Source: Chloroflexota bacterium
GTDB lineage: Bacteria; Chloroflexota; Chloroflexia; QHBQ01; JADMIH01
DNA: 5,493 nt
Assembly: GCA_015478675.1 (NCBI GenBank)
Contig: JADMIH010000222.1
Coordinates: 1-5,493 of the forward strand
Reading direction: 5' to 3'
Shown: positions 1,940 to 5,347 of the stretch, one piece after another
Position numbering within the stretch: position 1 is the stretch's first letter
How the letters are laid out: each line of letters starts with the position of its first letter
Made by a program: the position numbers and the translations under genes
The notes under the pieces: model-generated
What the model saw: only the letters and a program-made list of their open reading frames with translations
Database searches by the model: none
What the model was told of the DNA's origin: nothing

Positions 1940-2572
1940 CTAACCTTCTAACCGGCTAGGGCTTTCGCCCGTGATAACATCAGGCTCAGCACCAGGTGCG
2001 TGGCCGTACCGCGCCAGGTAGGCCTGCCTGAACTCCTCGCGAGCGCGAAAGAGGAGCGACTTCACTGCCGAGCGGCTTGCCCCCATCACCTCGCCTATCT
2101 CATCACACGACATCCCCTGATACTCTTTCAAGATCAACGCCATACGGTGCTTGGGGGTGAGCTTGTCCAGCACCGCCTGCACTTCGCCTGACGTCTCGAA
2201 CTGGTTGTATTCACCCACCGGGTCGTCATCAGCCGCAGGCTCGATGGCGGGATTGGTGTCAAATGTCTCCCAGGGGAGCCACTTTATCAACTTACGCCGC
2301 CTCAGCACGTCCATACAGGTGTTTGAGGCTATGCGATGCAGCCATGCCGAAAGGTTGAGGTCGGGGCTCGTGCGAGGCAGCGCCATGTACGCCTTGACGA
2401 AGGTGTCCTGCGTCAGGTCGTAGGCATCTTCGCTATTCCCCATAAGCCGGTAAATAAAGGCGTAGAGGCGCCGCTCGTAGCGACTGTAAATCGCTTCGAA
2501 AGCTGCCACGTCACCCTCGCGTGCCTTTGCTACCCAGCTTTTCTCATCAATGGACAAGGCGAAACCTTCCAT
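1940..2572 (-). CDS. ECF-type RNA polymerase sigma-70 family factor
   Basis: This encodes a 210-residue extracytoplasmic-function sigma factor that would direct RNA polymerase to a small regulon. Region 2 spans about residues 23-95. It contains the AFEAIYSRYERRLY core-binding helix, the DAYDLTQDTFVKAY segment of region 2.2 and the AWLHRIASNTCMDVLRRR stretch of regions 2.3-2.4. An acidic linker at about 104-130 follows. Region 4 (about 130-186) has LTPKHRMALILKEYQGMSCDEIG leading into the helix-turn-helix GASRSAVKSLLFRAREEF. No region 1 or 3 is present, as expected for the group. The ATG at 2572 is chosen: AGGAGG at 2584-2589 lies 11 bases upstream, whereas the alternative GTG at 2584 overlaps that site. 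It is the first gene of an operon with the anti-sigma gene downstream. Family assignment is certain; the regulon and ECF subgroup are not known. Confidence 0.97.
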   Translation of the reverse strand: MEGFALSIDEKSWVAKAREGDVAAFEAIYSRYERRLYAFIYRLMGNSEDAYDLTQDTFVKAYMALPRTSPDLNLSAWLHRIASNTCMDVLRRRKLIKWLPWETFDTNPAIEPAADDDPVGEYNQFETSGEVQAVLDKLTPKHRMALILKEYQGMSCDEIGEVMGASRSAVKSLLFRAREEFRQAYLARYGHAPGAEPDVITGESPSRLEG

Positions 2573-2583
2573 CCGGTGGCCCA

Positions 2584-2589
2584 CCTCCT
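2584..2589 (-). promoter_or_regulatory. Shine-Dalgarno site of the sigma gene
   Basis: Minus-strand AGGAGG, a strong consensus site. It lies 11 bases before ATG 2572, a slightly long spacing, and abuts GTG 2584, which rules out that GTG as the likely start. Confidence 0.65.
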
Positions 2590-2923: not shown

Positions 2924-3874
2924 ATGAGAGCTAAAGAGCGTTATGTAACCGCGCCCGTGCGCGGGCTATGGTGCAACCTGTGCGGCTCCAGGCTGGCGGG
3001 CAAAGGCAGCATGGCCGGTGGCATCATCACCAGGCACCGCGAGGTGCAGTGGACAGAGGCCACGGGCAAGGTTTCTACATGGTCGCTTTGCGCTCAGTGC
3101 TACGCCGAGCGGTTGAGCTGCGCGGCGTGCGGCTTGCAGGTGGGTGCCCAGGCTTTCATGCTTGAGGGCGAAGCTGGTATCTACTGCAAGCACTGTTTCG
3201 AGGAACGCCCCAGATGTGACACTTGCGGCTGCCCTGTAGGTTCGCACTACTGGACACGCTCTGACGGCAGGAAGCTGTGCGACGGGTGCCAGTCCACCGC
3301 AGTCTCCGACCCGGCACAAGCTCATGCTCTCTACAAGCGGGTGCGTTCCTCTCTCGCCCAGCTCCTCGGTATTTCCCTGCGCGAACCATGCCAGTTGAAG
3401 CTCGCCAACAGACGACAACTCCTTGAGTTGATTGAGAAGTCCTCACTGCACAGCCTGGACGCCGACAGTCGCGGGCGCTGTTTCGGGCTATTTATTCAGG
3501 AGGGGCGGCACAAGGCGGTCTTTGTAGAGTACGGCTTGCCGCAAATTGTGCTGCTCGAAGTGATGGCGCACGAGTACGCGCACGCCTGGCAGAGCGAGAA
3601 CTGCCCCAGGGGGATCTTGCCGGAAGTACAGGAAGGATTCGCTGAATGGGCAGCTTACAAACTGCTACAGGCATGGGGTTGCAGGCGCCGCTCGGAGAGA
3701 ATGTTGCGCCGGGAAGATATATACGGGCGTGGCCTCAAAAAGATGCTCCAATGGGAAGCAGAAGGCGGCCAGGCAGAGGTCTTCAGAAAGATCAAGCGCG
3801 AGCCGCCGAACCTCAAAGAACAGTCACCGCTTCGCGGAATCGCGAATAATGAGCTACGAGCGGGATTACGCTAG
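2924..3874 (+). CDS. DA1-like protein: LIM-type zinc fingers plus HExxH metallopeptidase
   Basis: This 316-residue protein has no signal peptide or membrane span, so it is probably cytoplasmic. Residues 17-122 carry six CxxC pairs (C17/C20, C56/C59, C66/C69, C88/C91, C98/C101, C119/C122) that pair into three LIM-like zinc fingers. The C-terminal half holds the peptidase: YGLPQIVLLEVMAHEYAH, with H216 and H220 as zinc ligands and E217 catalytic, then AW and LPEVQEGFAEW, where E237 is the likely third ligand. From memory, the order and spacing follow plant DA1 closely: PRCxxC, the DGRKLC motif, the segment to the LYGLPRLLTG-like strand, AHExxHAW and the VEEG motif. Plant DA1 is a ubiquitin-activated peptidase; its N-terminal ubiquitin-interacting motifs are absent here, so substrate and activation must differ. 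ATG 2924 follows an in-frame stop at 2915-2917 and has no clear ribosome binding site; GTG at 2957 would also keep every zinc ligand. Family: high confidence. Role: unknown. Confidence 0.88.
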   Translation: MRAKERYVTAPVRGLWCNLCGSRLAGKGSMAGGIITRHREVQWTEATGKVSTWSLCAQCYAERLSCAACGLQVGAQAFMLEGEAGIYCKHCFEERPRCDTCGCPVGSHYWTRSDGRKLCDGCQSTAVSDPAQAHALYKRVRSSLAQLLGISLREPCQLKLANRRQLLELIEKSSLHSLDADSRGRCFGLFIQEGRHKAVFVEYGLPQIVLLEVMAHEYAHAWQSENCPRGILPEVQEGFAEWAAYKLLQAWGCRRRSERMLRREDIYGRGLKKMLQWEAEGGQAEVFRKIKREPPNLKEQSPLRGIANNELRAGLR

Positions 3875-3895
3875 CTCATAATCGGTGATTCCGCG
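3833..3895. repeat. Long imperfect palindrome across the end of the DA1-like gene
   Basis: A nine-base outer arm (3833-3841, cgcggaatc) pairs with 3887-3895. A seven-base inner arm (3849-3855, atgagct) pairs with 3873-3879, and a four-base tip (3859-3862) pairs with 3869-3872 around a six-base loop. The seven bases between outer and inner arms also pair in part. The left half lies within the last codons of the DA1-like gene and the stop codon falls in the right inner arm. It may help end convergent transcripts or protect the messenger 3' end. Confidence 0.6.
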
Positions 3896-3909
3896 CAGGC
3901 GGAACTTTT
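3889..3909 (+). terminator. Rho-independent terminator candidate for the DA1-like gene
   Basis: ttccgc (3889-3894), a four-base loop and gcggaa (3899-3904) form a perfect six-base stem, followed by cttttactt. It sits 14 bases after the stop codon and just before the end of the convergent lipoprotein gene. Its left arm is shared with the long palindrome at 3833-3895, so the two folds exclude each other. The short stem and four-T tract make it moderate in strength. Confidence 0.55.
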
Positions 3910-5347
3910 ACTTCACCACGCTCATCGTCTTTTGCAGCGATTGCTGGTCGGTGGCTGATACGAATGCTGTTGCATCACCGGTGTGGGTAAAGGCGTACCA
4001 GCGGCCACCCTGAGTCCAGAAATTGCCGCTCTTAGTCGCTGTCCTGAAGGTCTCACGGATAGCAGTATCGAACTCATTGGCGTCTTCCTGGCTGTCCCAC
4101 ACGTAACTCTCGTAAAGAACCGCCGAGTCACCATTCTGGTAAAAGGCGTACGAGCCGCCTCCCCAGCCTGCTGCAGCTACGTCAGGGTTGGAAGCGCCTG
4201 TGATTTTCAGCATCTCCTGGAGATCGAACTCGCCTACTGTGCCCATATCTGTGGCAGTCCAACCTGTGCCAAGTGTGTTTGTGAGAGGCTGCAACACCAC
4301 AGATTTAGGATTATCACGCGGCTTCTCTATATACTTCTCAGGGTGAAGTATCTGTTCGGTTGAGAGGGGCGGGTCGGTCAGCGCTGCATTGACAGCGTTG
4401 TTGCCATCTATCTGCCTGAGCGCGCTTACAAACGCAGACCCCGCGTTATAAGGAAAGGTCAAACCATCTTGTATGTACTGCGGGGCGCTGTCAAAGACGG
4501 CTGTTGAGGCGGCGCTGCTCTCCTGGACCAGTTTCCTCAGGTCGGAGGTAGACATGTACTGCTGTGCGTACTGTATACCCGTAAGATTGGCATCACCTTC
4601 CACCAGCGCGCGAACAGCCGAATCGCGGTCGTCGTTTTGACTCTGATCAGGGATCAGCTTGTTCAAATTGTAGTTGTCGTCCTGTAAGCTGTGGACGAAC
4701 TCGTGTGCCAGGGTTTCGCGCGCTACCGGGTCGAGCGTGCCGCTGTCGTTGCGGGCGAAGAGTTCTTTTGTATCCGAGTCGTAGTAACCTGCTACCTGCT
4801 CGGTTAGCAAATCTACCTGGAGCTGGTAGAGGTCTGTCGAGCGGTTATCAAGCAAGCGAAGCAACCACGCCTCTGTCGCATCTCGCACAGCGTCTTTCTT
4901 CGGATAGTCTTTGCTCAGGCTCTTGAGAAGATTGTCGTGCATCTGGCTCTGGGTAACGAAAGCCTCCGGCACATCCCCGGTCGGCTTGAGACCGCGCACC
5001 TGGATTACATCGGCTTCAACTTCTTGAAGCTGCTTTTTTATCGCTGCGCTGATGGTGCCAGGTGTTGCTCCCTGGGCCGTCGTGTCAGTAGGTTCTGCTG
5101 TGCCTGCGACCCCTGCGACCCCTGTGGTCTCTGTGGGCGCGGCTACGGTGCTTTCGGCTGTTGGCTGAGATGGTGGCGCCACCTCAGTTCCAACTGCTGT
5201 TGGGCTTCCAGGCAGGAACTGCGAAGAAGAGGCCACGGTGGGGGTAGGCTGCGAGGCGGTAGGCGTCTGCGCCGAAGGCAGCCCCGTTGGGTCACAAGCT
5301 GCAAGCAATACAACAAGTAGGACTGCCAGCAATGAACGTTGGCGCAT
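3908..5347 (-). CDS. Lipoprotein with HExxH zinc metallopeptidase domain
   Basis: This encodes a 479-residue exported lipoprotein and probable membrane-anchored zinc protease. The signal sequence MRQR plus a hydrophobic core ends in the lipobox L15-A-A-C18, so C18 would be lipidated. Residues 20-100 are a Thr/Pro/Ser/Ala-rich tether. The folded part starts near 100; the sequence EQVAGYYD (183-190) precedes ETLAHEFVHSLQDD, where H215 and H219 are zinc ligands and E216 the catalytic residue. E250 in the ALVEGDA motif is the likely third ligand, as in gluzincins. Later motifs (PYNAGSAFV, PPLSTEQILHPEKY, AAGWGGGSY) recur, as far as I recall, in uncharacterised Chloroflexota peptidases of this type. 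It is not related to the DA1-like enzyme beyond the HExxH motif. ATG 5347 is supported by AGAAGG about 8 bases upstream and by the promoter at 5396-5424. It ends convergently with the DA1-like gene and is probably monocistronic. Substrate unknown. Confidence 0.88.
   Translation of the reverse strand: MRQRSLLAVLLVVLLAACDPTGLPSAQTPTASQPTPTVASSSQFLPGSPTAVGTEVAPPSQPTAESTVAAPTETTGVAGVAGTAEPTDTTAQGATPGTISAAIKKQLQEVEADVIQVRGLKPTGDVPEAFVTQSQMHDNLLKSLSKDYPKKDAVRDATEAWLLRLLDNRSTDLYQLQVDLLTEQVAGYYDSDTKELFARNDSGTLDPVARETLAHEFVHSLQDDNYNLNKLIPDQSQNDDRDSAVRALVEGDANLTGIQYAQQYMSTSDLRKLVQESSAASTAVFDSAPQYIQDGLTFPYNAGSAFVSALRQIDGNNAVNAALTDPPLSTEQILHPEKYIEKPRDNPKSVVLQPLTNTLGTGWTATDMGTVGEFDLQEMLKITGASNPDVAAAGWGGGSYAFYQNGDSAVLYESYVWDSQEDANEFDTAIRETFRTATKSGNFWTQGGRWYAFTHTGDATAFVSATDQQSLQKTMSVVK

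Follow-up and report, generated by a model that had tools for sequence, protein, structure and literature searches.

A bacterial DA1-family peptidase homologue with three LIM-like zinc fingers in Chloroflexota

The DNA analysed here (the window, 5,493 nucleotides of contig JADMIH010000222.1 from the Chloroflexota bacterium assembly GCA_015478675.1) carries a gene whose predicted product is, as judged from its sequence, a bacterial DA1-family peptidase, homologous to plant DA1 across both its zinc fingers and its peptidase domain (Table 1). A preliminary description of the DNA had recognised three Cys4 fingers followed by a DA1-type peptidase, and this architecture stands; the gene is no isolated surprise in bacteria, as homologues are in print and 78 of 400 sampled Chloroflexota genomes match at E <= 0.001. 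Bacterial DA1/LIM-like proteins were already known, and the window protein is a three-finger variant on a side branch of that known kind. In passages of Dong et al. 2017 (PMC5322733), citing Burroughs 2011, DA1 is compared with Roseiflexus proteins. Literature searches over titles and the starts of abstracts, with few subscription papers, returned no other title that we recognised as concerning bacterial DA1 or bacterial LIM proteins, and passages of PMC4506424 and PMC3710099 do not mention DA1.

Table 1. Features of the window and of the DA1-like protein encoded in it.
Feature	Position	Strand	Basis
DA1-like peptidase with LIM-like fingers, 316 aa	2924..3874	+	open reading frame list, Pfam scan, relatives
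Finger 1 (residues 17-59, CNLC...CAQC, long loop)	2972..3100	+	best fit finger A of four-finger relatives
Finger 2 (residues 66-91, CAAC...CKHC)	3119..3196	+	best fit finger C
Finger 3 (residues 98-122, CDTC...DGRKLCDGC)	3215..3289	+	best fit finger D
Peptidase domain (residues 128-297), model appears similar to M1-type catalytic domain	3305..3814	+	structure model
HEYAH zinc-binding/catalytic motif (H216, E217, H220; residues 216-220)	3569..3583	+	Pfam, alignments
E237, third zinc ligand by homology (HExxH-x16-E)	3632..3634	+	alignment with AtDA1
Y267, invariant, possible transition-state Tyr	3722..3724	+	alignments
ECF sigma factor, then zf-HC2 anti-sigma factor with long Thr/Pro-rich stretch and LGFP-like tail below cut-off	98-1909 and 1940-2584	-	Pfam scan
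Lipoprotein-like protein, 479 aa, LAHEFVH motif	3908-5347	-	resembles haloarchaeal Hvo_1808 surface family

Homology to plant DA1 spans fingers and peptidase

The open reading frame has guanine-plus-cytosine fractions of 0.61/0.49/0.70 at the three codon positions, and its product is 96% identical to relative P0001, whose N-terminus is the same. Of 2304 candidates in a protein search, 87 were relatives at E <= 0.001, and several of these 87, from Chloroflexota, already carry the public name 'protein DA1'; the window protein and 38 of these relatives, hand-picked and mostly full-length, made up a family alignment of 39 rows. Six CxxC pairs, at residues 17, 56, 66, 88, 98 and 119, form the three Cys4 fingers, with only 16 residues ahead of the first, and the motifs PRC-x2-C, DGRKLC and YGLP are all present in the translation as previously described. 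The Pfam DA1-like profile (PF12315) matches residues 196-249 of the window protein at 30.5 bits (cut-off 25; E 2.9e-7), covering 54 of the 213 profile positions, and is matched at E <= 0.01 by 38 of the 39 alignment members.

A profile of the family and one built from six plant DA1 proteins aligned along 233 columns, the fingers among them (probability 98.9; E 1.2e-17). In a 21-row alignment all 12 finger cysteines of the window protein fall on finger ligands of Arabidopsis DA1 (AtDA1), and the catalytic residues are intact, with H216, E217, H220, E237 and Y267 corresponding to H418, E419, H422, E439 and Y501 of AtDA1. Arabidopsis DA1/DAR (P0103) likewise places LIM-like fingers directly ahead of a DA1 peptidase and shares HExxH-x16-E and DGRKLC; the four CxxC/H pairs of the LIM-like domain that precedes the peptidase in DA1/DAR correspond pair by pair to fingers 2 and 3 of the window protein. 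The same alignment places C101 of the window protein on C274 of AtDA1, and passages of PMC5322733 report that the AtDA1 C274Y variant loses both its ubiquitylation by BB and its peptidase activity toward BB. The two proteins differ in that the window protein has three fingers and AtDA1 four, in the Cys residues that stand in the window protein in place of H220 and H263 of AtDA1, and in an insert that AtDA1 has, relative to the window family, before the strand preceding HExxH. In the Pfam scan the window protein has neither a canonical LIM nor a UIM match, whereas AtDA1 gives UIM_2 in its own scan, which agrees with the earlier remark that the ubiquitin-related N-terminal motifs of the plant protein are missing. 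A cytoplasmic location, also proposed earlier, is consistent with a crude hydropathy rule, by which the window protein has no strongly hydrophobic N-terminal run or signal-peptide-like N-terminus.

A chance resemblance, in which generic zinc ribbons have been fused to an unrelated zincin, would be in keeping with the LIM score of the window protein, which lies under the cut-off, and with the matches of double-zinc-ribbon profiles to some alignment members (DZR_2 in 6 of 39, DZR in 4 of 39). However, the fingers and the peptidase align jointly with plant DA1 in one profile comparison, residues and spacing are shared with the plant protein, and the mapping onto AtDA1 residues also speaks against fingers that are merely generic ribbons; we regard coincidence as highly improbable.

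The fingers are LIM-like and probably lack one member of a four-finger layout

Canonical LIM domains (PF00412) have the spacing C-x2-C-x16-23-H-x2-C-x2-C-x2-C. This spacing is absent from the window protein, in which Cys4 fingers are separated by six residues, and by these features its fingers are LIM-like rather than canonical LIM. The earlier statement that the protein keeps LIM-type fingers thus holds for LIM-like Cys4 fingers but not for LIM itself: the LIM profile, the counterpart of the positive DA1-like search, reaches 15.3 bits, below its cut-off of 22.9, and the finger set appears reduced. Across the family alignment, 28 of 39 members match LIM at E <= 0.01.

The window fingers were typed by scoring them against fingers A-D of six four-finger relatives. 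Finger 1 scored a mean of 50.7 against A (22.9-31.5 against the other types), finger 2 a mean of 75.5 against C with A as runner-up, and finger 3 a mean of 80.2 against D with B as runner-up; these runners-up are what would be expected if two-finger units were duplicated. The scores indicate that the window's group probably lacks finger B, keeping A-C-D of the four-finger layout. A is also the best fit of finger 1 in five of six other group members tested, while in P0060 it ties A (42.3) with C (42.4), and in the 21-row alignment finger 1 of the window protein lies on C172/C175 and H220/C223 of AtDA1. Finger 1 was also considered as a fused A/B finger and this was rejected, since segment means favour A in the window protein and five of the six group members, although single pairs vary.

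Conserved residues and modelled fold of the peptidase

All eight cysteines of fingers 2 and 3 (C66, C69, C88, C91, C98, C101, C119 and C122) are invariant in the 39 rows, as are, among others, H216, E217, H220, W222, E237 and Y267; the C-terminal tail of the window protein is absent from most relatives. Proteolysis by the window's lineage is a prediction from sequence, which leaves room for a DA1-fold scaffold that does not cut; the invariance of the five presumed catalytic positions (H216, E217, H220, E237 and Y267) argues against such a scaffold, and we think it improbable.

Models of the window protein and of plant DA1 were each compared with the same PDB library. On a second look the top Foldseek rows of the window model were filled by M1-type domains. 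The catalytic domain of M1 aminopeptidases appears similar to the window protein in modelled fold and shares HExxH...E, whereas these enzymes are not known to carry LIM-like fingers. Solved LIM domains were absent among 50 Foldseek rows, whose matches span residues 111-298 and barely cover the fingers, and a DA1 entry was absent among the 60 of 82 sequence matches listed and among 10 of another search. The Foldseek rows also include PprI/IrrE and GATA fingers (E 0.12 and weaker), and Peptidase_M78 is matched by two of the 39 alignment members; both observations would suit an IrrE/ImmA-style stress-response protease, whose fingers would contact nucleic acid or a regulator and whose peptidase would cut a transcription repressor or anti-sigma factor. 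The weakness of these E-values and the M1-type domains at the top of the second look count against it.

A LIM-type class of Chloroflexota lies nearer to plant DA1

Weaker matches were found in 21 of the 400 sampled Chloroflexota genomes (best E about 1e-18 to 1e-32), and all 21 were inspected. The LIM signature WH-x2-[HC]F is present in 20 of them and canonical LIM spacing in 18, with one locus (L153) having neither; the six proteins scanned score 41-63 bits for LIM and 55-69 bits for DA1-like, with no UIM match. These sequence features define a separate Chloroflexota class with a true LIM domain, a LIM-like domain and a DA1 peptidase. Its members (L100-L104, L138, L139 and others) are bacterial proteins with fingers and a DA1 peptidase, as in the window, but they have CxxH in the LIM-like domain, EEGFC in most cases and YG[DE]GFR, where the window protein has EGFAEW and YGRGLK.

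For each of six plant DA1 queries, the top eight BLAST matches within the set of bacterial proteins compared were the first seven LIM-type proteins and P0102, at 88-124 bits and mostly over nearly the whole bacterial protein, compared with 55-63 bits for the window protein against the same six. A tree of 59 rows (60 were hand-chosen and one is missing), unrooted and with flowering plants as its only plants, separates plants, the LIM-type proteins and two Acidobacteriota proteins from all others (support 100/98). The window protein falls inside a three-finger clade of 10 rows (100/99), amid bacterial proteins mostly from Chloroflexota. Grouping the plants with the window's clade was rejected by a topology test (p-AU 0.00093); grouping them with the LIM-type proteins alone, leaving out the two Acidobacteriota, lay 7.6 log units below the free tree and was not rejected (p 0.075). 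Among the proteins compared, the LIM-type Chloroflexota class is by these measures the nearest bacterial kin of plant DA1. Against this grouping stand the long branches, the restriction to flowering plants, the lack of a root and the DGRKLC motif, which is common to plants and the window's class but not to the LIM-type class; five LIM-type bacteria and P0102 differ from it at G115-R116 in the 21-row alignment.

That shared motif would also suit a recent transfer between plants and the window's own lineage, in either direction. The rejected topology (under this model), the association of plants with LIM-type Chloroflexota and the bacterial surroundings of the window's clade all argue otherwise, and such a transfer seems very unlikely. 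In this phylogeny of bacterial and plant DA1 proteins the plants stand apart from the window's clade, and the LIM-type class is closer to plant DA1 than the window's lineage is.

Distribution and finger number in bacteria

PF12315 alone found four of seven known carrier genomes at E <= 0.001, one of them above the cut-off; being a poor detector of bacterial members, it was replaced by alignment A1 in genome searches. Named genome contigs yielded 49 loci when scanned; 42 of these have Chloroflexota-type titles and the other seven are from Omnitrophota (2), Acidobacteria (2), Bacillota, Gracilibacteria and one unnamed bacterium. Among the 78 matching Chloroflexota genomes, 73 have a best E of 1.5e-18 or lower. 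Matches occur in 13 of 14 genomes of the group to which the Omnitrophota genome belongs, and in 34 of 149 of that of the Bacillota genome, the latter with up to 11 match rows per genome and 29 genomes at a best E of 2.8e-15 or lower covering the peptidase. The Acidobacteriota group has 38 of 199 genomes at E <= 0.001, but in only six does the best E fall below 1e-16; judged by eye, most of the remaining matches, short and around HExxH in long frames, are probably M1 aminopeptidases. In the group of L040, two of 19 genomes match, one strongly.

The finger counts come from a rule on pair spacing, which requires each pair to begin with Cys and misses the HxxC pairs of LIM-type proteins. By this rule Chloroflexales proteins have two fingers, Anaerolineae and several other groups four, and L040 and L136 eight, while the Omnitrophota group has six in four of the seven proteins printed (the rest 4, 2 and 2). 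Three fingers characterise the window's group: of the 43 proteins among P0001-P0061 that reach 270 residues, 38 count three and the other five two. The Roseiflexus/Chloroflexus proteins, 34-37% identical to the window protein, share its peptidase and fingers C-D but are two-fingered, finger A being additional in the window's group.

By the crude rule, many proteins of the Omnitrophota and Bacillota groups have strongly hydrophobic N-termini, as does L111. Tandem DA1-like genes lie on one strand at L115 (3622-13587, four genes) and L114 (5022-8736, three genes), most with signal-peptide-like N-termini, and their products are possibly exported zinc-finger proteases. A phage origin was rejected, as two short patterns scanned against viral contigs matched 76 times without a confirmed relative. 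Anti-phage defence was likewise set aside: PADLOC models match neither the window protein nor L101, and the PADLOC kinase and ABC matches at L043 belong to neighbouring genes.

Gene neighbourhoods

A context survey covered 84 loci with a DA1-like open reading frame, some of them dependent (L045 and L125 are the same place). A VWA gene lies directly downstream on the same strand in seven loci (L001, L002, L004, L008, L012, L019 and L043), overlapping the DA1 gene by 4 bases in L008 and L019, and three genes downstream in L003. L001, L002, L008 and L043 share the order DZR-FHA, PP2C, kinase, FHA-ABC, DA1, VWA, an Anaerolineae operon whose domains were scanned in L043 and inferred by BLAST in the other loci. 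Its ABC gene encodes an FHA-FHA-ABC transporter, and a second VWA gene follows the first; L019 has the operon in part, and in L043 it is followed by a gene for a zinc-ribbon S8 subtilase. Passages of PMC7159879 describe other systems with neighbours of the kinase, PP2C and stand-alone vWA kinds, and the text of that paper mentions neither LIM nor DA1.

Same-strand kinase genes adjoin DA1 in L116, L134, L135 and L136. In L108, L119, L120 and L122 the adjoining gene encodes a DZR-cyclase-AAA protein of 1,315-1,442 residues (double zinc ribbon, class III cyclase, AAA), with 4-base overlaps in L119 and L120; an FHA_ABC label for the L119 and L122 neighbours rested on shared zinc ribbons and was discarded. 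The L124 neighbour was judged to be of the same kind from its length and BLAST alone. A UvrD/AddA-like helicase gene stands directly after DA1 in 10 loci, and in L026 it is found two genes downstream; these 11 are all Chloroflexales or unspecified Chloroflexota records. For the window and seven LIM-type loci, as for many further loci, nine neighbour queries gave no match within five genes; the associations are therefore those of a minority of loci and vary with the lineage.

Upstream of the window's DA1-like gene, and divergent from it, lie the ECF sigma and zf-HC2 anti-sigma genes. They would offer a target for the IrrE/ImmA-style protease considered above, which the helicase genes would also suit. 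Yet the helicase adjacency is confined to one lineage and the sigma neighbourhood comes from the window contig alone, and we hold this alternative to be rather unlikely. Convergent with the DA1-like gene is a second HExxH protein of 479 residues, which has no Pfam match and scores 136 bits against the Hvo_1808 family, below the cut-off of 200. An imperfect inverted repeat at 3819-3909 (38-nucleotide arms, 74%) spans the convergent gene ends and the C-terminal tail of the DA1-like protein.

Discussion

We consider it reasonably probable that the window protein is a cytoplasmic, finger-gated zinc metallo-endopeptidase of the DA1 family (clan MA, gluzincin-like). Its domain content, its intact catalytic and finger residues and its place in the tree are observed and its fold class is suggested by a model; peptidase activity, latency and finger-mediated docking are inferred by analogy with the plant protein. 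The C-terminal domain would cut a partner protein, while the tandem Cys4 LIM-like fingers would dock the substrate or a signal protein acting upstream and, until that binding, maintain the peptidase in a latent state, as is thought for the LIM-like domain of plant DA1. Unlike in plant DA1, such gating would work without ubiquitin-binding motifs, and the cue may be an intracellular signal, for example from the Ser/Thr phospho-signalling or cyclase proteins whose genes adjoin those of some relatives.

More tentatively, and with doubts that outweigh our confidence, bacterial DA1 peptidases may serve as the proteolytic output of operons for Ser/Thr-phosphorylation or cyclic-nucleotide signalling, and their tandem LIM-like finger units (2, 3, 4, 6 or 8 fingers) may be interchangeable docking modules that lineages gain and lose. 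Plants would then have acquired a LIM-type version from Chloroflexota, ubiquitin replacing the bacterial cue, and the window protein would be a reduced three-finger offshoot outside the operon.

The most valuable lead lies outside the window, in the LIM-type class of Chloroflexota and in the signalling operons. The compact bacterial versions, which have roughly 230-320 residues and no UIMs, would permit a direct test of the effect of the fingers on the protease, and the kinase, phosphatase, FHA and VWA genes of the conserved operons supply candidate bacterial activators and substrates. With a LIM-type class closer to plant DA1 than the Roseiflexus proteins of the published comparison, the origin of the plant gene can be put to the test.
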